DNA of 64,000 bases. Origin: Streptomyces griseoviridis. Its GTDB lineage: Bacteria > Actinomycetota > Actinomycetes > Streptomycetales > Streptomycetaceae. The position numbers were made by a program, and so were the translations under genes. Shown one piece after another: positions 1,393-14,065 of the stretch. The notes under the pieces are model-generated. The model saw only the letters and a list, made by a program, of their open reading frames with translations. It had not been told where the DNA came from and made no database searches. The stretch spans positions 4,089,501 to 4,153,500 of the forward strand of contig NZ_CP029078.1 in the NCBI RefSeq assembly GCF_005222485.1, given 5' to 3'. The first letter of the stretch is position 1. Each line of letters opens with the position of its first letter.

Positions 1393-1998
1393 TCAGTCCG
1401 CCAGCTCCCGGTCCAGGATGTCCGCCCACTGCGCGACGACCCGGCCGCGCCTGGCGGTGTCGTCGGTGAGGAGGTGGGCGAGGCCGAGCCCCCGCGCCAT
1501 GTCCAGCAGGCCCTGGACGGTTTCGCGGACGCCCGGCCCGCTCTCGTCGGCGCCGAGCAGTTCGACGGCGGCCCGGTGGCTCTCCCGGCCGACGCGCGCC
1601 TCCAGCTCCGTCACCCGCGCGCCGAGCTGGTCCTCGTTCGAGGCGGCCACCCACAGGTGCAGGGCGGCCCGGAACAGCGGACCGGTGTAGAGGTCGACGA
1701 GGGCGGCGACGACGGCCCGCCGGTCACCGGCGGCGCCGTCCGGGAAGAGGGCGCGCAGGGCGGTGGAGCGTTCCTCGGCGACGTACTCGACGGCGGCCGT
1801 GAAGAGGTCCTCGCGGGTCGGGAAGTGGTGCTGGGCCGCGCCCCGGGAGACCCCGGCGCGCTCGGCGACGACGGAGACCGTGGAGCCCGCCCAGCCGTGT
1901 TCGGCGAGGCACGCGACGGCGGCCTCCAGCAGCCGCTGCCGGGTGGCCCGGCTGCGGTCCTGCTTGGGCGAGCGGTCGACTGCGGTCACAGCACCCAT
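1393..1998 (-). CDS. TetR/AcrR-family regulator at the end of the atu-like operon
   Basis: A DNA-binding repressor of about 200 residues. The N-terminal helix-turn-helix covers roughly residues 15-60 (RLLEAAVACLAEHGW, then VAERAGVSRGAAQHHFPTREDLF). The C-terminal ligand domain is not recognisable by eye. It is the last gene of the leftward catabolic operon, overlapping the enoyl-CoA hydratase stop. Two starts are possible: ATG at 1998 or GTG at 1989. The latter would reproduce the GTGA overlap used elsewhere in this operon. It probably represses the operon in response to an acyl-CoA or its precursor, and the likely target is the GCAAGC-N2-GCTTGC dyad at 11497-11510. That link is inference from gene position and operator shape. 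Confidence 0.85.
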   Translation of the reverse strand: MGAVTAVDRSPKQDRSRATRQRLLEAAVACLAEHGWAGSTVSVVAERAGVSRGAAQHHFPTREDLFTAAVEYVAEERSTALRALFPDGAAGDRRAVVAALVDLYTGPLFRAALHLWVAASNEDQLGARVTELEARVGRESHRAAVELLGADESGPGVRETVQGLLDMARGLGLAHLLTDDTARRGRVVAQWADILDRELAD

Positions 1999-2720
1999 GC
2001 GGGATCCCGTCGTTCTAGGAAGGCCGTCATCCCCTCGCGCGCGGGCGGTGACGAGAACAGCCGGCCCGAGAGCGCGGTGAGATCGGCCGCGTCCCGGTCG
2101 AAGGCTTCGAGCACCCTAGCCGTGAGCAGCTTCTTGGTCTCCGCGAGGGCCTGCGGTGCGGCTCGCCGCAGCCCGTCGAGGACGGGTCCGAGGACGGCGT
2201 CCACGTCGTCGCCCGCGGTGGTGAGCAGGCCGAGCCTGACGGCCTCGGCGGTGTCGAACCGCTCGCCGGTCAGACAGTGGCGGGCCAGGGCGCGCGGGTC
2301 GGCGCGGGGCAGCAGCGGCAGCGAGATGATCGCCGGGGCCACCCCGATGCGAACCTCGGTGAAGGCGAACGTGGCGGCGGTGCCCGCGGCGGCGATGTCG
2401 CAGGCGGCGAGCAGCCCGAGGCCGCCCGCCCTGACATGGCCGGTGACCCGGGCGACGACGGGCCTCGGCAGTTCGACGACGAGCCGCAGCAGCCGCACCA
2501 GGTCCTCGGGGGCGGGCGGGTCGCGCAGGTCGGCTCCGGCGCAGAAGGTGGTGCCGGTGTGGGTGAGGACGACGGCGCGCACGTCGTCGTCGTGCGCGCA
2601 CTCGGTGAGCGCGGCCGTCAACTCCCGCACCAGGGGCGCCGACAGGGCGTTGCGGGTGTCGGGGGAGTCGAGGCTGAGGGTCCGCACGCCGCGCGCGTGG
2701 GCGCGGCCGACGCCGCTCAC
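1986..2720 (-). CDS. Enoyl-CoA hydratase/isomerase (crotonase) family, AtuE/LiuC-like position
   Basis: The crotonase fold hydrates or isomerises enoyl-CoA esters in the cytoplasm. In the 244-residue product the CoA/oxyanion segment reads FCAGADLRD (about 62-70), followed by GHVRAGGLGLLAACD and FTEVRIGVAP. The second segment carries the Glu that matches the second catalytic Glu of crotonase. The first catalytic Glu position (GCEL in rat crotonase) appears as GLLA, so one of the two acids seems to be missing. The GTG start overlaps the upstream ligase stop as GTGA, which implies coupled translation. In the atu scheme it would hydrate the carboxylated enoyl-CoA. Isomerase or another crotonase chemistry is possible because of the lost Glu. 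Confidence 0.85.
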   Translation of the reverse strand: MSGVGRAHARGVRTLSLDSPDTRNALSAPLVRELTAALTECAHDDDVRAVVLTHTGTTFCAGADLRDPPAPEDLVRLLRLVVELPRPVVARVTGHVRAGGLGLLAACDIAAAGTAATFAFTEVRIGVAPAIISLPLLPRADPRALARHCLTGERFDTAEAVRLGLLTTAGDDVDAVLGPVLDGLRRAAPQALAETKKLLTARVLEAFDRDAADLTALSGRLFSSPPAREGMTAFLERRDPAWVL

Positions 2721-4279
2721 GCCCGGTCCCGCAGGACGCGGCGGAGGATCTTGCCGGTGGCGGCGCGCGGCACGGTGTCGACGAAGGTGACGGCGCGCAC
2801 CCGTTTGTAGGGGGCGACGCGTTCGGCGACGTACGTCATGACCTCCCCTTCGGAGAGGCCGGTGGCCGCGCGGACCACGTGGGCGTGCGGGATCTCGTCG
2901 CCGCGGTCGTCGAGGGCGCCGACGACGGCGGCGTCGGCGATGCCCGGGTGGGTGAGCAGGAGGGCCTCCAGTTCGGCGGGGGCCACCTGGTAGCCCTTGT
3001 ACTTGATGAGTTCCTTGACCCGGTCGACGACGAACAGCCAGCCGTCGGCGTCGACCCGGCCGACGTCCCCGGTGTGCAGCCAGCCGTCCGCGTCGAGGAT
3101 CGCGGCGGTGGCGTCGGGGCGGCCCAGGTAGCCCTTCATGACCTGGGGGCCGCGGATGAGGATCTCGCCGGTCTCGTCGACGCCGAGGTCGCGCGCGGGT
3201 CCTTCGAGGGGGACGACGCGCATCTCGGTGCCCGCGATGAGCTTGCCGACGGTGCCGGGCGGCGCGTGCTCCATGGCGTCGAGCGGGACGACGTGGGTGC
3301 CGGGGGAGAGTTCGGTCATGCCGTAGGCCTGGCCGACCGGCGGCAGGCCGAGCCGGTGGGCGCAGGCCGCGGCGAGGGTGGCGTCGAGGGGGGCGGCGGC
3401 GCTGAGGATGTAGCGCAGCGACGACAGGTCGTGGTCGGCGACCGCCGGGTGCTTGGCCAGCGCCAGGACGATCGGCGGGGCCACGTACAGGCCGGTGATG
3501 CGGTGGTTCTCGATGGCCGCGAGGAAGCTCTCCAGGTCGAAGCGGGGCAGGACGACGACGGTGGCGCCGGAGCGCAGCGGCGCGTTCATGAGGGCGGTCA
3601 GGCCGTAGATGTGGAAGAACGGCAGCACCGCGAGGATGCGCTCACCGGGTTCGACGCGCACCGAGGGCTCCAACTGGGCCAGGTTGGTGGCGATCTGGCG
3701 GTGGGTGAGCATCACGCCCTTGGGCAGTCCGGTGGTGCCTGAGGAGTACGGCAGGACCGCCACGTCGGTCACCGGGTCGAGGGTGACGTCGGGTTCCGGG
3801 TCCTGGCAGGCGAGCAGGTCGAGCAGGGAGCGGTGGCCCGGCGCGCGGTCGCAGACCAGGATCTCCCGTACCCCGCCCGCGAGTTCGGCGGCCCTGCGGG
3901 CGGTGTCGAGGAGCGGGGAGACGGTGACGATCCAGCGGGCGCCCGCGTCCCGCAGCTGGCCGGCGAACTCCTCGGCGGTGGCCAGTGGATGGACGGTGGT
4001 GACGGTGGCGCCCGCGCGGGTCGCCGCGTAGAACGCGGTCGGGAAGGCGATCGTGTTGGGGCTGTGCAGCGCGAGCACGTCCCCCTTGCGGACCCCGAGC
4101 GCGGCGAGCCCGGCGGCCACCCGCCGGTGGAAGCGGTCCAGTTGGGCGTAGGTGAGAGTGGTGCCGTCGGTGCCGTCGATCAGTGCGGGCCGCTCGCCGT
4201 ACTCGGCGGCCCGGCCCAGGACCGCTTCGTGGATGGGGAGTTCTACGGGCGGGACGTCGGCGTACTCGCTGCGGAACAC
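2717..4279 (-). CDS. AMP-forming acyl-CoA synthetase (4-coumarate-CoA-ligase-like)
   Basis: It activates a carboxylic acid to its CoA thioester through an acyl-adenylate. The 520-residue product has all the ANL-superfamily signatures: the phosphate loop YSSGTTGLPKGVM (about 178-190), YGMTELSPGT, the hinge HTGDVGRVDADGWLFVVDRV followed by KELIKYKGYQVAPAELE, and the catalytic-lysine block PRAATGKILRR near the C-terminus. The GTG start at 4279 was chosen because GGAGGA lies 4-9 bases upstream; an earlier GTG at 4297 lacks this. In this operon it would make the first CoA ester of the pathway (AtuH-like role). The true acid is unknown; the closest general family is 4-coumarate/medium-chain ligases. 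Confidence 0.9.
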   Translation of the reverse strand: MFRSEYADVPPVELPIHEAVLGRAAEYGERPALIDGTDGTTLTYAQLDRFHRRVAAGLAALGVRKGDVLALHSPNTIAFPTAFYAATRAGATVTTVHPLATAEEFAGQLRDAGARWIVTVSPLLDTARRAAELAGGVREILVCDRAPGHRSLLDLLACQDPEPDVTLDPVTDVAVLPYSSGTTGLPKGVMLTHRQIATNLAQLEPSVRVEPGERILAVLPFFHIYGLTALMNAPLRSGATVVVLPRFDLESFLAAIENHRITGLYVAPPIVLALAKHPAVADHDLSSLRYILSAAAPLDATLAAACAHRLGLPPVGQAYGMTELSPGTHVVPLDAMEHAPPGTVGKLIAGTEMRVVPLEGPARDLGVDETGEILIRGPQVMKGYLGRPDATAAILDADGWLHTGDVGRVDADGWLFVVDRVKELIKYKGYQVAPAELEALLLTHPGIADAAVVGALDDRGDEIPHAHVVRAATGLSEGEVMTYVAERVAPYKRVRAVTFVDTVPRAATGKILRRVLRDRA

Positions 4280-4307
4280 GGTTCCTCCTCGCACCACGCG
4301 GTGCCGG

Positions 4308-5468
4308 TCAGTACGACTTGGGCAGGCCGAGGCTCTGGTGGGAGACGTAGTTGAGGATCATCTCCCGGCTCACCGGGGCGATCCTGGCGACCCGGGCCGC
4401 GGTGATCAGGGAGGCGATCCCGAACTCGCGGGTGAGTCCGTTGCCGCCGAGGGTGTGCACGGCCTGGTCGACGGCGCGCACACACGCCTCCCCGGCCGCG
4501 TACTTGGCCATGTTGGCGGCCTCGCCGGCCCCGACGTCGTCGCCCGCGTCGTACAGCAGGGCCGCCTTCCGGGTCATCAGGCGGGCGAGTTCGAGTTCGA
4601 TGTGGGCCTGCGCGAGGGGGTGGGCGATGGCCTGGTGGGCGCCGATCGGGGTCTTCCACACGGTGCGTTCACGGGCGTACTCGACGGCCCGCCCGAGCGC
4701 GTAGCGGCCCATGCCGATCGCGAACGCGGCCGTCATCACACGCTCCGGGTTGAGTCCCGCGAACAGTTGGAGCAGTCCGGCGTCCTCGTCGCCGACGAGC
4801 GCCTCCTGCGGCAGCCGCACCTCGTCGAGGGTCAGCTCGAACTGCTTCTCCGCCGCGTTCAGTTCCATGTCGATGGGGCGCCGGGTGAAGCCGTCGGCGT
4901 CGCGCGGGACGATGAAGAGGCAGGGTTTGAGGGAGCCGGTGCGGGCGTCCTCGGTGCGGCCGACGATCAGGGTGGCGTCGGCGATGTCGACCCCGGAGAC
5001 GAACACCTTGCGGCCGGTGAGCAGCCAGTCCGCGCCGTCCCTGCGGGCGGTGGTGGTGATGCGGTGGCTGTTGGAGCCGGCGTCGGGCTCGGTGATGCCG
5101 AACGCCATCAGGCGGGTGCCGTCGGCGAGGGCGGGCAGCCACTCGTCCTTCTGCGCGTCGGTGCCGAACCGGGAGATCACCGTGCCGCAGATCGCCGGGG
5201 AGACGATCATCATCAGCAGCGGCGCCCCGACCGCGCCCAACTCCTCCAGGACGATGGAGAGTTCGGTGATGCCGGCGCCGCCACCGCCGTACCGCTCGGG
5301 GAGGTTGACGCCGATGTAGCCGAGGGCCGCCGCCTCCAGCCAGAGGTCCTTGGGGTAGCCGCCCTCCTCCTGGACGCGGGTGAGGTAGTCGCGGCCGTAG
5401 CGCCGCCCGAAGGCGGAGACCGCGGTGCGTAGTGCCTGGTGTTCGTCGGATTCCAGCAGGGTGGGCAT
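4308..5468 (-). CDS. Acyl-CoA dehydrogenase
   Basis: A flavoprotein that introduces an alpha,beta double bond into an acyl-CoA and passes electrons to ETF. The 386-residue length is standard. Family motifs are AFGITEPDAGSNSH (FAD/substrate loop, about 120-133), the middle beta-domain with WLLTGRKVFVSGVDIAD, and the C-terminal VHTLGGNGLTREFGIAS. The ATG start has AAGGAG directly upstream. It lies between the ligase and biotin carboxylase genes and matches AtuD (citronellyl-CoA dehydrogenase) or LiuA (isovaleryl-CoA dehydrogenase) by context. The sequence alone does not decide between them. Confidence 0.92.
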   Translation of the reverse strand: MPTLLESDEHQALRTAVSAFGRRYGRDYLTRVQEEGGYPKDLWLEAAALGYIGVNLPERYGGGGAGITELSIVLEELGAVGAPLLMMIVSPAICGTVISRFGTDAQKDEWLPALADGTRLMAFGITEPDAGSNSHRITTTARRDGADWLLTGRKVFVSGVDIADATLIVGRTEDARTGSLKPCLFIVPRDADGFTRRPIDMELNAAEKQFELTLDEVRLPQEALVGDEDAGLLQLFAGLNPERVMTAAFAIGMGRYALGRAVEYARERTVWKTPIGAHQAIAHPLAQAHIELELARLMTRKAALLYDAGDDVGAGEAANMAKYAAGEACVRAVDQAVHTLGGNGLTREFGIASLITAARVARIAPVSREMILNYVSHQSLGLPKSY

Positions 5469-5545
5469 GGGGCTCCTTGGGACGGGGGGACGGGTCTCGC
5501 GGTGCGGCGCCTTGCTCCTTGTGCGAGGGGGGAGGGCGTGGGCCG

Positions 5546-7387
5546 CTACCCGGGGCGGACCACCGCCAGCAGCGTGCCCACCGCCACCTGCCGGCCGGGG
5601 GCGACCTCGAGCGCGGTCAGCGTGCCCGTCACCGGGGCCGTGACGCGGTGTTCCATCTTCATCGCCTCGAGCCACAGCAGCGGCTCGCCCGCCTTCACCT
5701 CCACGCCGGGCGCCAGCCCCTCCGCCACCCGGACGACGGTGCCCGGCATCGGCGCCACCAGGGAGCCGGGGGCCAGCGGGGCGACCGGGTCGGGGAAGCG
5801 GGGCAGCGCGGTCAGGGCGGTGGCGTTCACCTGGACCCGGTCGCCGTACCTGGCCACCGCGAACCGCCGCCTGACGCCGTCGACTTCGAGGACGACGAGA
5901 GCGGCGTCGGCGTGGATCACCCGGACGCCGTCGGCGGCCAGGCCCTCCCGGGTGTGCCGGTAGTGGACCTCGTGCTCCTCGCCGTCGACCGCGTACCGCT
6001 TGGTCTGCGGCCCGGAGCCGAGGTTGCGCCAGCCGCCGAACCGGGAGCGGCCGTGGGCGTCGGCGAGGGCCGCCGCGAGCGGCGCGTACGGGTCGGGGTC
6101 GGGGGCGGTCAGGGCCGTCAGATGGCGGTCGTAGAACCCGGTGTCGAGGCGGCCCGAGGTGAACGCGTCATGGCGCAGGGACCGCACCAGCAGGTCGCGG
6201 TTGGTGACCGGGCCGTGGATCGTCGCCCGCTCCAGGGCGCCCGCCAGCGTGCGCAGCGCCTCCGCGCGGGTCGGGGCGTGCGCGATCACCTTGGCGAGCA
6301 TCGGGTCGTAGTGGACGCCGACGGTGTCGCCGTCGCCGTACCCGCTGTCCAGGCGGACGCCCTCGGGGACGGCGAGGCGGTGCAGGGTGCCGGTCTGCGG
6401 GGCCCAGTCGCGGGCCGGGTCCTCCGCGTAGAGGCGGGCCTCGACGGCGTGGCCGCGCGCGGGCGGTGGCGCGCTCTCCAGGGCCGCGCCCTCCGCGATC
6501 CGCAGTTGCAGCGCGACCAGGTCGATGCCGAACACGGCCTCGGTGACCGGGTGTTCGACCTGGAGGCGGGTGTTCATCTCCAGGAAGTGGGCGGTGTCGC
6601 CGTCGAGCAGGAACTCGACGGTGCCCGCGCCGACGTACGACACGGCGCGCGCCGCCCGCTCCGCGAACGCGCTGATCTCGTCGACGAGTTCGGCGCTCAG
6701 GCCGGGTGCGGGTGCCTCCTCGATCACCTTCTGGTGGCGGCGCTGGAGGGAGCAGTCGCGGGTGCCGAGGGTCCACACCGTGCCGTGGCCGTCGGCGAGG
6801 ATCTGCACCTCGACATGGCGGCCGCCCTCGACGTACGGCTCGACGAACACCTCGCCGTCCCCGAAGGCGCTCGCGGCCTCGGCGCGCGCCGCCGCCAGCG
6901 CGCCGTCCAGCTCCTCGACGCGGCGCACCACCCGCATGCCGCGCCCGCCGCCGCCCGCCGCCGCCTTCACCAGGACCGGCAGATCGGCGGCGGTGACACG
7001 GGTGAGGGGCGCGATGCCCAGCAGCTCCTTGGCGCGGGTCTTGGACGCCATCGCCTCGATCGCCTCGGGCGGCGGGCCGACCCAGACCAGGCCCGCGTCG
7101 AGGACGGCGCGGGCGAAGCCGGCGTTCTCGGAGAGGAAGCCGTAGCCGGGGTGGACGGCGTCGGCGCCCGCGGCGAGGGCCGCCCGCACGATCAGGTCGC
7201 CGCGCAGATACGTCTCGGCGGGGGTCGCGCCGGGCAGCCTGACCGCCAGGTCGGCCTCCCGGGTGTGCGGGGCGTCGGCGTCGGGGTCCGCGTGCACGGC
7301 GACCGTGCGGATGCCCGCCGCACGGCAGGTGCGGAAGACGCGGCGGGCTATCTCGCCCCGGTTGGCGACGAGCAGGGTGGAGATCAT
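5546..7387 (-). CDS. Biotin-dependent acyl-CoA carboxylase, biotin carboxylase/BCCP (alpha) subunit
   Basis: The alpha subunit carboxylates its own biotin with ATP and bicarbonate. In the 613-residue product the biotin-carboxylase N-domain starts STLLVANRGEIARRVFRT. The ATP-grasp glycine loop is KAAAGGGGRGMRVV (about 147-160), EMNTRLQVEHPVTEAVFGIDLV follows, and the C-terminal biotinyl domain carries the biotin lysine in LEAMKMEHRV (Lys near residue 576). It is slightly shorter than typical MccA/AtuF proteins (about 650-670). The start is the ATG of MISTLL, five bases after the carboxyltransferase stop. Together with the next gene upstream it forms a two-subunit methylcrotonyl-, geranyl- or related acyl-CoA carboxylase. 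Confidence 0.93.
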   Translation of the reverse strand: MISTLLVANRGEIARRVFRTCRAAGIRTVAVHADPDADAPHTREADLAVRLPGATPAETYLRGDLIVRAALAAGADAVHPGYGFLSENAGFARAVLDAGLVWVGPPPEAIEAMASKTRAKELLGIAPLTRVTAADLPVLVKAAAGGGGRGMRVVRRVEELDGALAAARAEAASAFGDGEVFVEPYVEGGRHVEVQILADGHGTVWTLGTRDCSLQRRHQKVIEEAPAPGLSAELVDEISAFAERAARAVSYVGAGTVEFLLDGDTAHFLEMNTRLQVEHPVTEAVFGIDLVALQLRIAEGAALESAPPPARGHAVEARLYAEDPARDWAPQTGTLHRLAVPEGVRLDSGYGDGDTVGVHYDPMLAKVIAHAPTRAEALRTLAGALERATIHGPVTNRDLLVRSLRHDAFTSGRLDTGFYDRHLTALTAPDPDPYAPLAAALADAHGRSRFGGWRNLGSGPQTKRYAVDGEEHEVHYRHTREGLAADGVRVIHADAALVVLEVDGVRRRFAVARYGDRVQVNATALTALPRFPDPVAPLAPGSLVAPMPGTVVRVAEGLAPGVEVKAGEPLLWLEAMKMEHRVTAPVTGTLTALEVAPGRQVAVGTLLAVVRPG

Positions 7388-7392
7388 GGGCC

Positions 7393-8991
7393 TCACATCC
7401 GGAAGACGCCGAAGCCGCCGCGCGCGCCCTCGTAGGGCGCGGTGTGCACGGCGGACAGGCACAGGCCGAGAACGGTGCGGGTGTCGCGCGGGTCGATGAC
7501 GCCGTCGTCGTAGAGCCGCCCGGACAGGAACATCGGCAGCGACTCCGACTCGATCTGCCGCTCCACCATGGCGCGCAGGGCGGCGTCCGCGTCGTCGTCG
7601 TACGGCTGCCCCTTCGCGAGCGCGGACTGGCGGGCGACGATCGACAGGACCCCGGCGAGCTGCTGCGGGCCCATGACGGCTGACTTGGCGCTGGGCCAGG
7701 AGAACAGGAAGCGCGGGTCGTAGGCGCGCCCGCACATGCCGTAGTGCCCGGCGCCGTAGGAGGCGCCCAGCAGGACGGACAGGTGCGGGACCCGGCTGTT
7801 GGCGACCGCGTTGATCATCATCGCGCCGTGTTTGATGATGCCGCCCTGCTCGTACTCCTTGCCGACCATGTAGCCGGTGGTGTTGTGCAGGAACAGCAGC
7901 GGGATGTCGCGCTGGTTGGCGAGCTGGATGAACTGGGCGGCCTTCTGCGACTCCTCGCTGAACAGCACGCCCTGCGCGTTGGCGAGGACGCCGACCGGGT
8001 AGCCGTGCAGGCGGGCCCAGCCGGTCGTCAGGCTGGTCCCGTACAGCGGCTTGAACGCGTCGAAGTCGGAGCCGTCGACGATCCTGGCGATCACCTCGCG
8101 CGGGTCGAAGGGCACCTTGAGGTCGCCGGGGACGATCCCGAGGAGTTCGTCGGGGTCGTACAGGGGCGGCTCGGCCGGACCCGGATCGCCGTACGCCTTG
8201 CGGTGGTTGAGGCGGGCCACCACCCGCCGCGCCTGGCGCAGCGCGTCCCGCTCGTCGACGGCGAAGTGGTCGGCGAGACCCGACACCCGCGCGTGCATCT
8301 CGGCGCCGCCGAGCGACTCGTCGTCGCTCTCCTCGCCGGTGGCCATCTTCACCAGCGGCGGCCCGCCGAGGAACACCTTGGCGCGCTCCTTGACCATGAT
8401 GACGTGGTCGGACATGCCGGGGATGTAGGCGCCGCCCGCCGTGGAGTTGCCGAAGACGACGGCGACGGTGGGGATGCCGGCCGCCGAGAGCCGGGTCAGA
8501 TCACGGAAGATGGCGCCGCCGGGGATGAAGATCTCTTTCTGGGACGGCAGATCGGCGCCGCCCGACTCGACGAGGCTCACGCAGGGCAGCCGGTTGGCGA
8601 GCGCGATGTCGTTGGCGCGCAGGGCCTTCTTCAGCGACCAGGGGTTGCTCGCGCCGCCGCGCACGGTCGGGTCGTTGGCGGTGATCAGGCACTCGACGCC
8701 CTCGACGACCCCGATGCCGGTGACGAGGGAGGCCCCGACGGTGTACTCGCTGCCCCAGGCGGCCAGCGGGGACAGTTCGAGGAACGGGGTGTCCGGGTCG
8801 AGGAGCAGCTCGATGCGCTCCCGGGCGAGCAACTTGCCGCGCTTGCGGTGCCGTTCGACGTATTTGACGCCGCCGCCCGCGAGCGCCTTGGCGTGCTCGG
8901 TGTCGAGGTCGGCGAGCTTGCCGAGCATGGCCGCGCGGTGGTCACGGTAGTCCTGTCCCGTGACGTCGAGCGCGGTGGGGAGGACGGTCAC
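7393..8991 (-). CDS. Acyl-CoA carboxylase, carboxyltransferase (beta) subunit, MCC/GCC-like
   Basis: It transfers CO2 from carboxybiotin to an acyl- or enoyl-CoA. The 532-residue product has the two crotonase-fold halves of AccD-type transferases: DPTVRGGASNPWSLKKALRA and VSLVESGGADLPSQ in the N-half; GVLANAQGVLFSEESQKAAQF, FLHNTTGYMVGKEYEQGG and GASYGAGHYGMCGRAYDPRF in the C-half. The last two are hallmark methylcrotonyl/geranyl-type segments. The loop after DLPSQ (KEIFIPGGAIFRDLTRLSA) differs from the FPDRDHFGRIFYNQA form I recall for methylcrotonyl-CoA carboxylases, so the substrate is open. The GTG start overlaps the upstream stop as GTGA. Confidence 0.93.
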   Translation of the reverse strand: MTVLPTALDVTGQDYRDHRAAMLGKLADLDTEHAKALAGGGVKYVERHRKRGKLLARERIELLLDPDTPFLELSPLAAWGSEYTVGASLVTGIGVVEGVECLITANDPTVRGGASNPWSLKKALRANDIALANRLPCVSLVESGGADLPSQKEIFIPGGAIFRDLTRLSAAGIPTVAVVFGNSTAGGAYIPGMSDHVIMVKERAKVFLGGPPLVKMATGEESDDESLGGAEMHARVSGLADHFAVDERDALRQARRVVARLNHRKAYGDPGPAEPPLYDPDELLGIVPGDLKVPFDPREVIARIVDGSDFDAFKPLYGTSLTTGWARLHGYPVGVLANAQGVLFSEESQKAAQFIQLANQRDIPLLFLHNTTGYMVGKEYEQGGIIKHGAMMINAVANSRVPHLSVLLGASYGAGHYGMCGRAYDPRFLFSWPSAKSAVMGPQQLAGVLSIVARQSALAKGQPYDDDADAALRAMVERQIESESLPMFLSGRLYDDGVIDPRDTRTVLGLCLSAVHTAPYEGARGGFGVFRM

Positions 8992-10673
8992 AGCAGGGCC
9001 TCCGGCAGATCGAGGTGGCGGGCGCGCAGCCATTCGCCGAGCGCCTTGGCCTGCGGGTCGAAGCGGTGCTGGGCGGCGACGCCCTCGCCGAGGATCCCCT
9101 CGACGACGAAGTTCAGGGCGCGCAGCCGGGGCAGGACGTGCCGGGTGACGGGCAGTCCACGGCTCTCCGGGATCAGCTCCTCGAACCGCTCGACGGTGAG
9201 TTCGTGGGCGAGCCACCGCCAGGCGTCCTCGGTGCGGGCCCACACCCCGACGTTGGCGTCCGCGCCCTTGTCGCCGCTGCGGGCCCCGGCGACCAGGCCG
9301 AGCGGCGCCCGCCGCACCGGCCCGGCGGGCAGCGGCTTCGGCAGCGCGGGCGGCGGGAGCGCGGCGAGGGCCAGGGTGGCGGCGGGCGGCGGCACGGGGT
9401 GGCGCTGCCCGTCGGGCAGGACGGCCACCTGCCGGACGTCGGACTGCGGCACGTACCCGGCCTCGAAGACGCCGTAGGGCGTGCCCTTCCCCGGCGGCGC
9501 GAGGACGTGGAAGCCCGGGTAGCTGGCGAGGGCCAGCTCGACGGCGGCACCGCTCAACGACCGTCCGACGACGGCCTGTTCGGCGTCCCGGACGACGAGC
9601 CGCAGCAGTGCGCTCGCGGTCTCCTCGGTCGGCGCGTCGGGCCGGTCGGTGCGGACCAGCTCCCACCGCACCTCCTTCGGGGGCGACTTGGCGAGCGCGT
9701 CGGCCATCTGGGCGCGCACCAGGTCGGCCTTGGCGTCGATGTCGAGTCCGGTGAGCACGAAGACGACCTCGCCCCTGAAGCCGCCGAGCCGGTTGCGGCC
9801 GACCTTGAGGTCGGGCGGCGGTGCCTCGCCGCGCACGCCCTCGATCCTGACCCGGTCGGGCCCGTCCTGGACGAGCCGCACGGTGTCGAGGCGGGCGGTG
9901 ACATCGGGCCCCGGGTAGCGGGCGCCGCCGGTCTCGTAGAGCAGTTGGGCGGTGACCGTGCCGACGTCGACGATCCCGCCGGTGCCGGGGTGCTTGGTGA
10001 TGACGGCGGTGCCGTCCTCGTGGATCTCGGCGAGCGGGAACCCGGGCCGCCCGAGCCCGCCCGGCACCTCGCCGAAGAAGGCGTAGTTGCCGCCGGTGGC
10101 CTGCGTCCCGCACTCCAGGACATGCCCGGCGACGACGGCCCCCGCGAGCCGGTCGTGGTCGTCGGGCCGCCAGCCGAAGTGGGCGGCGGCGGGCCCGGTG
10201 ACCAGCGCCGCGTCCGTCACCCGCCCGGTGACGACGACGTCCGCGCCGGCCGTCAGACAGGCGGCGATCCCGAACCCGCCGAGGTAGGCGTGGGCGGCGA
10301 GGCTGCCGGGGTGCGCGGCGGTGAGATCGTCCCCCTCGACATGCGCGACCCGGGCGGGCACCCCGACCCGCTCGGCCAACTCCCGTACGGCGACGGCGAG
10401 TCCGGCCGGGTTGAGGCCACCGGCGTTGACGACGATCCGCACCCCGCGCTCCGCCGCGAGCCCGAGCCCCTCCTCCAACTGCCGCAGGAACGTGCGCGCG
10501 TACCCGGCGTCGGGGTTCTTCAGCCGGTCCCTGGCGAGGATCAGCATGGTCAGCTCGGCGAGGTAGTCGCCGGTGAGGACGTCGAGTTCACCGCCGGTGA
10601 GCATCTCGCGCAGCGCGTCGAAGCGGTCGCCGTAGAACCCGGAGGCGTTGCCGATCCGCAGGGGCGCGGTCAC
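8988..10673 (-). CDS. AtuA-family protein (DUF1446), acyclic terpene utilization-type
   Basis: AtuA proteins are encoded in geraniol/citronellol degradation operons; their biochemical step is not established. In the 561-residue product the N-terminal AtuA domain is about 1-440 ([73 protein letters not shown]). A C-terminal ferredoxin-like domain starts at about 460 with [20 protein letters not shown]. The GTG start overlaps the upstream stop as GTGA, and the downstream carboxyltransferase overlaps in the same way, so these genes are translated as a coupled set. This gene is the best single argument that the operon is atu-like rather than a leucine (liu) operon. Confidence 0.9.
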
Positions 10674-11464
10674 GCGGCGGCCCCCTTCGGCGGGCGTCCG
10701 GGCCCCGGCGGGCCCGCGAAGGACTGGGCGATGTCGAGCCAGCGGTCGGCGTCCTGGCCGGTGGCGGTGACCGCCAGGTCGGCGCGGTGGGCGCGCTGGG
10801 TGACCAGCAGACAGAAGTCGAGGGCGGGCCCGGTGACCCGCTGCGCGGCGTCCTCGGGCCCGTACCCCCACAACTCGCCGCCGGGAGCCGTGAGTTCGAC
10901 CCGGAACGGCTCGGCGGGGACGGCCAGCGAACGGGCGGCGAAGGCGAAGTCGCGGGCCCGGACGCCGATGTGCGCGACATGCCGCAGCCGTTCGGTCGGC
11001 ACCCGGACCACGCCGAGCGCGTCCGCGACGTCCTGGCCGTGGGCCCAGGTCTCCATCAGCCGCCCGGTGGCCATGGACGCGGCCGACATCGGCGGCCCGT
11101 ACCAGGGGAAGCGGGCGCCGGGCGGGGCGTCGCGCAGGGCCCGCGCCAACGCGGACCGCCCGGCCCGCCACCGCGCGAGCAGCTCGGCGGGCGGCAGCGC
11201 GGCCCCTTCCTCCGCACCGGCGTCGACGAACGACTCGGGGGCGGCGAGGGCCTTCTCCACCAGCACACGGAAGCCGTCCTGGTCGGTCACGGCCAGCAGG
11301 GCGGAGTGGTCGGTCCAGGCGAGATGGGCGATCTGGTGCGCGATGCTCCAACGGGGCGCGGGAGTCGCGAGCGTCCACGACTCGGGCGCCAACTCGGCGA
11401 CGAGCAGATCGAGTTCGTCGCTCTCCGCACACAGGTCGTCGATGACGGGCGTCGGGTCGGCCAT
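10670..11464 (-). CDS. TIGR03084-type DinB/mycothiol-maleylpyruvate-isomerase-like metal-binding protein
   Basis: The 264-residue product belongs to the DinB/MDMPI-like four-helix family. The N-terminal helix bundle holds three spaced histidines of a metal site: [15 protein letters not shown] (about 45-59), and [13 protein letters not shown] near 165. The C-terminal half resembles the SCP-2-like tail ([17 protein letters not shown]). It is the first gene of the leftward operon. The ATG at 11464 gives a start matching the conserved [11 protein letters not shown] beginning. Upstream ATGs at 11479 and 11512 are in frame, but none has a good ribosome site, so a leaderless or weakly led message is possible. 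Its catalytic role in the pathway is unknown; a thiol-linked isomerase is one idea. Confidence 0.8.
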
Positions 11465-11496
11465 GAGGGGGAGCATGGCAGGGGCGCGATAAACAA

Positions 11497-11510
11497 GCAA
11501 GCGTGCTTGC
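11497..11510. promoter_or_regulatory. TetR-type operator candidate GCAAGC-N2-GCTTGC
   Basis: A perfect 6-bp inverted repeat with a 2-bp spacer lies 33 bases before the chosen start of the first operon gene. TetR repressors commonly bind such compact dyads, and a TetR gene closes this same operon. The inverted repeat is seen; the partnership is inferred. Confidence 0.55.
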
Positions 11511-11616
11511 ATGAATTGATGCGAGGGGGTGAGGCCGGGAGGGGTGGCCCGGCGGGGGCTGGACCTGGCCCACCGGGACCGGGCTCCGCTCGCTTGCCTG
11601 CTTGCTTGCCCGCTTG

Positions 11617-11634
11617 CTTGGAGTGCACTCCAAG
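11617..11634. promoter_or_regulatory. 18-bp perfect palindrome CTTGGAGTGCACTCCAAG
   Basis: It reads the same on both strands without a spacer and is preceded by GCTTG repeats. Its shape (GAGTGCACTC core) resembles operators of MerR-family activators. It lies about 150 bases upstream of the SDR start and about 150 bases upstream of the operon start. No MerR gene is present in the window, so the binding protein is unknown. Confidence 0.5.
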
Positions 11635-11729
11635 GTCATAGCGTCGAGCCGGCTGAACCGCACAGGCGAGGAGGCCGAACCCCACACCCGACGCGGCGAC
11701 GGCGTCGACGCGTCATCCCGTAGGACCGA

Positions 11730-11770
11730 CAAGCGCTAACAAGCGCTGACAAGCACCGACAACAAACCGA
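11730..11770 (+). repeat. 10-bp-phased direct repeats (CAAGCGCTRA-like) before the SDR gene
   Basis: Successive units begin at 11730, 11740, 11750 and 11760 and read CAAGCGCTAA, CAAGCGCTGA, CAAGCACCGA and CAACAAACCGA. The period matches one DNA helical turn, so a protein could bind one face of the helix. The last unit ends about 15 bases before the SDR start. Confidence 0.55.
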
Positions 11771-11785
11771 CAGGAACGGCGGCAC

Positions 11786-12580
11786 GTGGTGGACCACCCC
11801 TTCACACCCCATGCGGAACTCTTCAGTCTGCGAGGAAAGCGCGCGCTCGTCACCGGTGGCACCCGGGGCATCGGAATGATGATCGCGCGTGGCCTCCTCC
11901 AGGCGGGCGCCCGCGTGGTCATCAGCTCACGCGACGCAAAGGCGTGCGCTCGGGCGCGAGAACAGCTGTCCGCGTTCGGTGAGGTGCGGGCCGTCCCCGC
12001 CGACCTGTCCCGCCACGACGAGTGCCGGCGACTGTCCGACCTGGTCACGGCCGGCTCGGAGCGCCTCGACATCCTCGTCAACAACGCGGGCGCCCTGTGG
12101 GACGAGCCGCTGGAGACGTTCCCGGACGAGGCCTGGGACACGGTCGTCGACCTCAACCTGAAGTCGCCGTTCTGGCTGGTCCAGGCGCTGCTGCCGGCAC
12201 TGCGCGAGGCGGGCACCGCCGACGATCCCGCGCGGATCATCAACATCGGCAGCATCGCCGCCATCCACATCCCCCAGCGGCCCAACTACTCGTACTCCAG
12301 CAGCAAGGCCGCCCTGCACCAGCTCACCCGGGTGCTCGCCAAGGAACTGGGACCGCAGCACGTCACCGTGAACGCCGTGGCGCCCGGACCGTTCCCGTCG
12401 ACGATGATGGCGGCGACCCTCGACGAGTTCGGCGAGGCGATCGCGGCGGCGGCCCCCCTGCGCCGGATCGGCCGCGACGACGACATGGCGGGCGTCTCGG
12501 TGTTCCTCGCCGGCCGGGCGGGCGCGTACCTGACGGGGGCCGTGATCCCGGTCGACGGCGGCATCGCCACCACCGCGTAG
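11786..12580 (+). CDS. Short-chain dehydrogenase/reductase (SDR)
   Basis: An NAD(P)-dependent oxidoreductase of the classical SDR type, 264 residues. The cofactor loop is TGGTRGIG (about 23-30), followed by NNAG (LDILVNNAGALWD), the catalytic Ser in INIGSIAAI, Tyr-Ser-Ser-Ser-Lys near residue 170, and the VNAVAPGPFPSTM segment. The start is GTG at 11786 (a second GTG follows at once), with AGGAACG about ten bases upstream. It is divergent from the acyl-CoA operon and close to its repeat-rich control region. In Pseudomonas atu operons SDRs (AtuB, AtuG) are encoded with the same enzymes, so a terpenol or hydroxyacyl-CoA substrate is plausible but unproven. Confidence 0.9.
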   Translation: MVDHPFTPHAELFSLRGKRALVTGGTRGIGMMIARGLLQAGARVVISSRDAKACARAREQLSAFGEVRAVPADLSRHDECRRLSDLVTAGSERLDILVNNAGALWDEPLETFPDEAWDTVVDLNLKSPFWLVQALLPALREAGTADDPARIINIGSIAAIHIPQRPNYSYSSSKAALHQLTRVLAKELGPQHVTVNAVAPGPFPSTMMAATLDEFGEAIAAAAPLRRIGRDDDMAGVSVFLAGRAGAYLTGAVIPVDGGIATTA

Positions 12581-12635: not shown

Positions 12636-13097
12636 TCACGAGGCGTACTGGTCCGAGATCTCGGTGGCGTAGCTCTTCCAGAGCGGCCCCATGGTCTCGG
12701 CGTTGACCGGCTGCCCGGAATCGATCATGGCCTTGAAGTCGCGGAAGTACTGCACGTACAGGTCAGGCGTGAAGGTGTTCAGCATGACGGCGTTCTCGTC
12801 GCCGACGTTGGCGAACGTGTGCGGCGCCCCGGCCGGCACGATGACCCAGGTGCCCGGCCCGGCGTCGTGGTGGTCCTCGCCGACGGTGAACCTAAACGTC
12901 CCCGCCAGCACGTAGAAACCCTCGTCGTGCTGGGCGTGGCGATGCTGCAACGGGCTCGGGGTGCCCGGCGGGATGGTGACCTCGGCGAACCCCAGCCGGT
13001 GGTCGGTGTGCTCGCCGTTCTCCAGGATGCGGATCCGCTGCGCCCCGCTGCCGAGGATCTCGCCCTCACCGGGGCGGACGATGTTGACCTTCGCCAT
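12636..13097 (-). CDS. Cupin-domain protein
   Basis: The 153-residue product is a single conserved cupin barrel. Motif 1 reads HRHAQHDEGFYVLAG (about 53-67), giving the usual two His plus Glu metal ligands, and motif 2 is PAGAPHTFANVGDENA with its His. The C-terminal helix (YFRDFKAMIDSGQPVNAETMG) resembles quercetin-dioxygenase-like cupins of actinobacteria. The ATG start has AGGAG upstream. It lies 8 bases behind the AraC-type regulator gene in the same orientation, so the two are probably co-transcribed. Substrate unknown. Confidence 0.85.
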   Translation of the reverse strand: MAKVNIVRPGEGEILGSGAQRIRILENGEHTDHRLGFAEVTIPPGTPSPLQHRHAQHDEGFYVLAGTFRFTVGEDHHDAGPGTWVIVPAGAPHTFANVGDENAVMLNTFTPDLYVQYFRDFKAMIDSGQPVNAETMGPLWKSYATEISDQYAS

Positions 13098-13105
13098 GAC
13101 GTCTC

Positions 13106-14065
13106 CTATTGCTCGTGCCTGCCTTGGTCACCACCATCCTTGTCCCGGCCGGCCGGGCGCGTCCTGGTCGTCCGCGCACGGTTGCTGGTCACCAGTGCAC
13201 GGGCGTTGTAGCCGTACGTCGCCTTGAAGAGCTTGCTGAAGTGGGTGGGGTCGGAGAATCCCCACCGGGCGGCCACGGCGGTGACCGTGCGTCCGCTTCC
13301 GGTCAGCTCGGCCCGGCAGCGCTCCAGGCGGCGACGGCGGATCAGGGCCGCGACGGTGAGCGGCTGGTCCTCGAACAGCTTGTGCAGCCGGCGTACGGAC
13401 ATGTGATGGGCGGCGGCGATGCCGGGCGGGGACAGACCGGGATCGGCGAGCCGGGTCTCGATGTAGCCGACGATCCGGCTCCGCAGCCACTCGTCGGGGG
13501 CCGGCTGTTCGTCGCCGAGCCGCGACTCCAGTGCGACGGCGATCAGCTCGACGACGGCCGCCGCCGACCGCAGCGCCTCCGCCTCGCGGAACGCGGACGC
13601 CGACCGCGCCGACTCCCGGGCCAGCACGGAGACGAGGGCACCCGGGCCGTGGCTGCCGTCGATGCGTCTGCCGACGAGCCGGTCGATCTGCGCGGGCCTG
13701 ATCCGAAGCTCCCGGCGCGGCACCAGGATGGTGACGTGCGCCGCGGCGGTGCTCTCGAACCGGAGCGCGCGGGTGGGGTCGAGCAGGACCAGGTCGGTCG
13801 GCCCGAGGTCGGCGTCGCTGCGCCCCTGCTCGATCCGCGTCCGGCCCCGGGTCATCACCTTGACCGCCAGGTGCTCGCCGTCGGAGGCGTCGCGCTCCCG
13901 CCCGACGCAGGCGCTCTCGGGGGTGTCGAGGGAGACCAGCCGCAGCGGCCCGAGGTCACAGGTGGCGATCCCGCCCCGGAAGCCGGCCCCGGCCAGTTTG
14001 TTGACCAGCGGCGGAAACCCGCTGGCAGCCAGCTCGTCCTGGAACGACTCAAGGTTGCCGATCAC
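13106..14065 (-). CDS. AraC-family transcriptional regulator
   Basis: The 319-residue product has an AraC/XylS double helix-turn-helix at about 205-305 (PGIAAAHHMSVRRLHKLFEDQ, then VTAVAARWGFSDPTHFSKLFKATYGY). The N-terminal region (HLAVKVMTRGRTRIEQ, DLGPTDLVLLDPTRALRFES) matches the AraC-binding-like cupin fold of NphR/FeaR-type regulators. That suggests it senses an aromatic or similar small molecule. It is upstream of and in an operon with the cupin gene; autoregulation is likely but no operator is evident by eye. The ATG start at 14065 follows a purine-poor leader. Confidence 0.9.
   Translation of the reverse strand: MIGNLESFQDELAASGFPPLVNKLAGAGFRGGIATCDLGPLRLVSLDTPESACVGRERDASDGEHLAVKVMTRGRTRIEQGRSDADLGPTDLVLLDPTRALRFESTAAAHVTILVPRRELRIRPAQIDRLVGRRIDGSHGPGALVSVLARESARSASAFREAEALRSAAAVVELIAVALESRLGDEQPAPDEWLRSRIVGYIETRLADPGLSPPGIAAAHHMSVRRLHKLFEDQPLTVAALIRRRRLERCRAELTGSGRTVTAVAARWGFSDPTHFSKLFKATYGYNARALVTSNRARTTRTRPAGRDKDGGDQGRHEQ

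Follow-up and report, generated by a model that had tools for sequence, protein, structure and literature searches.

A conserved AtuA-linked carboxylase operon of Streptomyces, probably devoted to the catabolism of 3-methyl-branched acids

The stretch of DNA analysed here, hereafter the window, comprises 64,000 nucleotides of Streptomyces griseoviridis (contig NZ_CP029078.1, positions 4,089,501 to 4,153,500) and contains an eight-gene operon that is probably a TetR-controlled catabolic unit for acids with a methyl branch at C3. Its likely role is to carboxylate at the gamma position, and then to cleave, 3-methyl-branched enoyl-CoAs that exceed methylcrotonyl-CoA in size, geranyl-CoA being one candidate substrate among isoprenoid or other 3-methyl-branched acids. 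The branch at C3 bars the direct beta-oxidation of such acids. This reading is drawn from the place of the carboxyltransferase (CT) in the gamma-carboxylase lineage and its pocket residues, the biotin-carrying subunit, the conservation of the gene set, a separate leucine-type CT in the same genome, the growth of a mycobacterial mutant on isovalerate and a single operator-like site.

The operon and its conservation

The operon runs on the minus strand from 11464 to 1393, and its genes either overlap or are separated by gaps of 5 to 77 bases. Gene calls were based on codon composition and on family scans of the window, which recovered every gene type named in the original prediction where it had been placed, and the domain scores of the components rule out chance. 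The first gene (10670..11464) encodes a TIGR03084 family protein of the MDMPI/DinB fold (PF11716), as had been proposed, with 376.7 bits for a cut-off of 247.95 and an intact H / E-x3-H site. It is followed by the AtuA family gene (8988..10673; PF07287, E=1.9e-146, 488.8 bits; AtuA_ferredoxin PF23544), which overlaps the gene on either side by 4 bases, and by the CT beta subunit of an AccD2-like clade (7393..8991), assigned by family scan and tree. The alpha subunit (5546..7387) combines biotin carboxylase, BT and biotin carboxyl carrier protein (BCCP) domains (PF00289, PF02786, PF02785, PF21139, PF00364) and has an EAMKM biotin site. Downstream lie genes for an acyl-CoA dehydrogenase (4308..5468), a 4-coumarate:CoA ligase (4CL)-like acyl-CoA ligase (2717..4279), an enoyl-CoA hydratase of the NF005879/PRK07827 type (1986..2720; 353.2 bits, cut-off 283) and a TetR family regulator (1393..1998), the dehydrogenase and the regulator being recognized by family scan.

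Conservation was followed in a one-genome-per-species scan whose best 80 AtuA loci came from Streptomyces (75), Amycolatopsis (4) and Rhodococcus (1); being the best of a longer list, they are near relatives. Of the 74 Streptomyces loci that extend 1 kb upstream, 73 have TIGR03084 ahead of AtuA, and it is missing in L128. The other genes were counted in 65 Streptomyces loci, chosen by flank length, whose sequence continues for 9.9 kb or more past AtuA. The CT, the biotin carboxylase and the acyl-CoA dehydrogenase were each present in all 65, and the seven genes besides the ligase occurred together in 61. The ligase itself was found in 54 loci and appears optional, since it was not found in 11 that keep the three others. 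AtuA was present in 24 of 25 genomes of a genus sample, our own genome included, and already bears its name in databases there, so that it is no rarity; in a phylum-wide sample of 246 genomes it was present in 52, and gene context in the phylum was studied in 40 hand-chosen stretches. From the locus and genus-sample counts, the operon is a common and ordinary-looking catabolic operon of Streptomyces.

The carboxyltransferase, its pocket and the leucine pathway

The CT tree comprised 47 rows, namely 42 hand-chosen loci, four PDB chains and the window (L165 was dropped because it offered a 364-aa frame only), with two rows of geranyl-CoA carboxylase (GCC) and with the M. tuberculosis AccD2 sequence outside the set. 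The window CT was found within an actinobacterial clade of 36 rows. Six rows of methylcrotonyl-CoA carboxylase (MCC; support 99/97) and the two GCC rows (100/100) form clades separate from it, and these three groups are jointly split from the PccB/AccD rows of the same genome (100/100). Forcing the window CT together with the two GCC rows gave a tree 54.9 log units worse (approximately unbiased test, p-AU 0.0004), and forcing it with MCC gave a p-AU of 2e-7. The original prediction had staked itself on a CT within the GCC and MCC clades, which holds in part: the protein stands outside each clade, yet inside their joint lineage.

MCC has been distinguished from GCC by a three-residue insertion and by Phe191, which blocks the pocket and is replaced by Gly in GCC (PMC4673880). 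The loop of the window CT reads FIPGGAIF as compared to FPDREHFGRIF in the MCC form, which bears out the earlier remark that it departs from the methylcrotonyl type. Gly158 occupies the position of Phe191 and the insertion is missing, so that both GCC marks are present. Across the clade, the pocket residue is Gly in 30 of 36 rows, Ala in three, Ser in three and Phe in none, and the insertion is missing in 36/36. Since both marks are found in a clade outside GCC and MCC, the CT, as judged from its sequence, combines a pocket of the geranyl type with a backbone belonging to neither enzyme. As Gly stands here in place of the pocket-narrowing residue of MCC, the pocket signature makes the concrete prediction that the substrate would be bigger than methylcrotonyl-CoA.

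In parallel, the alpha subunit carries the MCC-type BT domain PF21139, and the hook Trp is found in 16/16 aligned alpha subunits. As a side observation, the biotin carboxylase (5546-7387) is without a stretch ahead of the glycine-rich ATP-grasp segment when compared with the Azospirillum and Sinorhizobium liu alpha subunits. This shortening was observed in all operon-type rows aligned and goes further in six of the seven Streptomyces rows, the window included.

The leucine (liu) operon shares with this one the acyl-CoA dehydrogenase, the CT and the biotin carboxylase as well as the gamma-carboxylase lineage, and differs by its 3-hydroxy-3-methylglutaryl-CoA (HMG-CoA) lyase and by the MCC Phe and insertion. 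Six PF00682 HMGL-like matches were found in the genome at E up to 0.001 and none of them in the window, in line with the lyase having been called absent from the gene set. The genome also contains a liu-type CT, 52% identical to the window CT, with an adjoining HMGL-like gene (G000:C1:3.427-3.432 Mb), and the leucine pathway appears to be located there. The window operon as the leucine operon was rejected on the loop, the tree and this separate locus, as the original prediction had it.

A second leucine/isovalerate pathway built on an MCC paralogue is a distinct proposal, and a very improbable one. It can appeal to PaMCC beta as the nearest solved relative of the window CT (582 bits) and to the liu-type locus itself (L020), where no hydratase was found by tblastn with the window hydratase as query, so that the operon hydratase could serve liu; a missing liuC was reported for S. 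coelicolor (PMC9636800). Besides the missing MCC residues, the rejected MCC placement and the separate liu-type locus, it is opposed by M. smegmatis deprived of accD2-accA2, which grows on isovalerate like the wild type, the authors leaving the substrate open (PMC4347857). A transposon mutant of sco4384 was likewise unimpaired in caprazamycin aglycon production, although this is a different assay (PMC9636800). By its place, sco4384 is probably the hydratase of this operon.

AtuA, TIGR03084 and the proposed pathway

The original prediction described a complete set of genes for acyclic terpene utilization (atu). The Pseudomonas atu system (AtuR and AtuA-H, with AtuC/AtuF as geranyl-CoA carboxylase) indeed resembles the operon in its AtuA, CT, biotin carboxylase, acyl-CoA dehydrogenase, hydratase and TetR and in its GCC-type pocket site. 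However, the window CT and AtuA fall in other, actinobacterial clades, the hydratase is of another type (136.5 bits with the gamma-carboxygeranoyl-CoA hydratase, or AtuE-type, model NF004227, for a cut-off of 426), TIGR03084 is added, TetR comes last, the ligase is optional and short-chain dehydrogenase/reductase (SDR) genes corresponding to AtuB/AtuG are not conserved members. The description therefore stands for the composition and not for the descent; the operon is, on these comparisons, atu-like in logic and apparently not a Pseudomonas-type atu operon by descent.

The AtuA side of this comparison comes from a tree of 52 rows, made of 51 hand-chosen loci, all of them kept, and the window, in which one row only is an atu-type AtuA. 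The window AtuA is placed with other actinobacterial rows, 39 in all (100/100). The atu-type row, from an atu-order cluster on an Acinetobacter plasmid, joins five rows without a CT in their stretch, four of them proteobacterial and one actinobacterial (100/99). Other actinobacterial rows are also found on this far side of the tree, and the deepest split is weak (90/46). On the window's side, a CT occurs within the stretch for 32 of the 40 AtuA rows and none for the other 8. A true citronellol/geraniol operon acting on geranyl-CoA would account for the enzyme types shared with atu, the pocket Gly, the missing insertion and the lack of an HMGL-like gene in the window. It is nevertheless unlikely in view of the clades of CT and AtuA, the hydratase score and the SDR that is not conserved; with AtuA near-universal in the genus sample (24/25), one would sooner expect a general substrate than a special one.

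For 3-methyl-branched acids, we infer the reactions and their order from the enzyme types. The acid would be converted to its CoA ester, by the operon ligase where present, and the acyl-CoA dehydrogenase would then yield the 2-enoyl-CoA. The pair of biotin carboxylase-BCCP and CT subunits, expected to be an alpha6-beta6 complex, would carboxylate the gamma-methyl carbon, and the hydratase would add water to give a 3-hydroxy-3-alkylglutaryl-CoA. Finally, AtuA would split off acetate, leaving a 3-oxoacyl-CoA to be finished by ordinary beta-oxidation. AtuA has been listed as a lyase releasing acetate from 3-hydroxy-3-isohexenylglutaryl-CoA (PMC4847356), a role elsewhere termed speculated (PMC9973270), and the window AtuA is likely to have this proposed activity.

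The ligase brings in cinnamate-type aryl acids as another kind of substrate. Its best PDB relative is the plant 4CL 3a9u (413.6 bits) and SCO4383, its counterpart by gene order, is annotated as a 4-coumarate-CoA ligase. Catabolism of aryl acids led by this enzyme is quite unlikely, as the ligase was not found in 11/65 loci that keep the carboxylase and dehydrogenase genes and as, by general chemistry, cinnamoyl-CoA offers no gamma carbon to a gamma-carboxylase. An aryl acid with a 3-methyl group would fit both ligase and gamma-carboxylase. The turnover of fatty-acid-like signals of the diffusible signal factor (DSF) type, or of other long 2-enoic acids, is the remotest of these proposals, and we know of no DSF link in Streptomyces. 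DSF induces the atu homologues dmgA-G of P. nitroreducens, where a dmgA-H deletion impairs DSF degradation, but deletion of digA-D mattered more (PMC9973270).

Several observations weigh against the catabolism of 3-methyl-branched acids as set out above. Hydratase and TetR were both not found in four of the 65 Streptomyces loci (L089, L091, L114 and L115), and the 4CL-like ligase, by its sequence, points to aryl acids. The window CT is nearer to PaMCC (54.6% identity) than to PaGCC (45.5%), the support of its own clade is 91/96 in a tree with two GCC rows only, and the alternative sister orders of MCC, GCC and this clade (p-AU 0.36 and 0.34) are not rejected. A long N-terminal helix, absent from the beta subunit of propionyl-CoA carboxylase, has been given as a second mark of the MCC/GCC lineage (PMC4673880); in the alignment, 60 residues precede the RERI motif in the window CT and 52-56 in the PccB/AccD rows of the same genome, i.e. 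4-8 more, so that this mark is not clear. In the literature searched, no measured activity was found for any member of the CT clade. The lyase role of AtuA is itself a proposal from the literature, and no match to PDB sequences was found for AtuA at E up to 10. Moreover, the AtuA genes of L138, L140 and L143 have no carboxylase in their stretch and stand beside CoA-transferase, hydratase or TRAP/TTT transporter genes; given these neighbourhoods, the chemistry of AtuA may extend beyond terpenes.

TIGR03084 is closely tied to AtuA. It was found in 36 of the 52 phylum genomes with AtuA as compared to 11 of the 194 without (E up to 1e-40), and it adjoins AtuA in 31 of the 33 genomes of a relatives sample that have it. 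Its H / E-x3-H residues, which we take to be metal-binding, are identical in 15/15 aligned rows. The superfamily model bears the name of mycothiol-dependent maleylpyruvate isomerase, an enzyme that turns double bonds from cis into trans. Of the geometric isomers of geranyl-CoA, GCC favours one. From this name and these facts, a thiol-dependent isomerase of enoyl-CoA geometry can be put forward as a doubtful suggestion. With a threshold set at 344 bits for the MshC model, an MshC-like score of at least this value was reached in 32 of the 39 genomes whose TIGR03084 score passes the cut-off and in 27 of the 207 others, a difference confounded by kinship; of the genomes reaching it, 22 exceed the curated MshC cut-off and 37 do not. 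Strict mycothiol use is opposed by seven genomes that have TIGR03084 but no clear MshC-like gene.

The operon also has a mycobacterial relative. In a mycobacterial-type family of the phylum sample, so named after the CT of one genome (G110) that is up to 95% identical to named Mycobacterium/Mycolicibacterium proteins, the order AtuA-ACD-CT-BC-ACD-ECH (ACD, acyl-CoA dehydrogenase; BC, biotin carboxylase; ECH, enoyl-CoA hydratase) was found in 7/7 loci. TIGR03084 is present in 7/7 of these genomes and adjacent to AtuA in one. The window CT is 77% identical to the rows of this family, in whose clade it lies. The gene order fits the accA2/accD2 operon Rv0976c to Rv0971c, fadE13 being presumably Rv0975c and Rv0976c, from its place, the presumed AtuA. 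The numbers of accD2, accA2, fadE12 and echA7 are taken from published reports (PMC9283954, PMC4564863), and AccD2 was described as also lacking the MCC motif (PMC4347857). Both operons link AtuA, CT, biotin carboxylase, acyl-CoA dehydrogenase and hydratase, whereas the Streptomyces one has TIGR03084 first and usually a 4CL-like ligase, and no acyl-CoA dehydrogenase between AtuA and CT. Expression of the mycobacterial operon is reported to rise 20-300 fold under hypoxia and in stationary phase (PMC9283954, PMC4347857). A search of the open-access literature by titles, abstract starts and passages gave no substrate assignment for the operon in Streptomyces or mycobacteria. The comparison joins a common Streptomyces operon, treated piecemeal in the literature searched, with accA2/accD2. 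As a side observation, the 924-aa database protein P0145 contains CT and ACD domains in a single chain and is 91% identical to the mycobacterial-type CT; it may reflect either a genuine fusion or an error of assembly.

Regulation and neighbouring genes

A palindromic operator-like site, ATGCAAGCACGCTTGCTT on the minus strand, is located at 11495..11512, 31-48 bases upstream of the first gene. With a consensus drawn from the same loci as those scored, this 18-base palindrome was found, with no more than 4 mismatches, in the 250 upstream bases of 74/74 Streptomyces regions, the window included, for a Markov-1 control mean of 0.0. The five Amycolatopsis and Rhodococcus regions show 4-5 mismatches to the consensus, so that the operator is not established outside Streptomyces. 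When no more than 2 mismatches are allowed, the genome has this one site only. Given its conservation upstream and its single occurrence, the simplest reading is a single-target operator to which the TetR protein would bind, and the pair offers a ready basis for a ligand screen. An ATG at 11512 was rejected as the start of the TIGR03084 gene because it falls within the operator-like site, 11464 being more likely.

The gene order of the operon corresponds to that published for SCO4380-SCO4385 in S. coelicolor, with the carboxylase pair (4380/81), 4CL (4383), hydratase (4384) and TetR (4385). By this order, the regulator is the likely counterpart of Sco4385, a DNA-binding dimer studied for its effects on foreign antibiotic clusters, for which a sco4383-4386 cluster was suggested (PMC12093943). 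The counterpart of the ligase gene (2717-4279), SCO4383, has been reported as the attB site of phage SV1, whose integration is thought to be toxic in S. venezuelae (PMC4068962).

Beyond the TetR end of the operon lie pdxH and citrate synthase genes. At the other end, the divergent SDR oxidoreductase gene (11786..12580, plus strand; family scan) had been counted in the gene set. It was rejected as a member for lack of conservation and is a neighbour in this strain: in 68 Streptomyces loci that reach 2 kb or more beyond TIGR03084 on the upstream side, no SDR of 40% identity or more was found. A cupin gene and an AraC regulator adjoin it (window 12636-14065). Between the SDR gene and the operon, at 11617-11634, lies the perfect 18-base palindrome CTTGGAGTGCACTCCAAG, whose exact match is unique in the genome, with three more at 2 mismatches. 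It resembles, to our eye, MerR-type operators, and the SDR gene may be under separate control.

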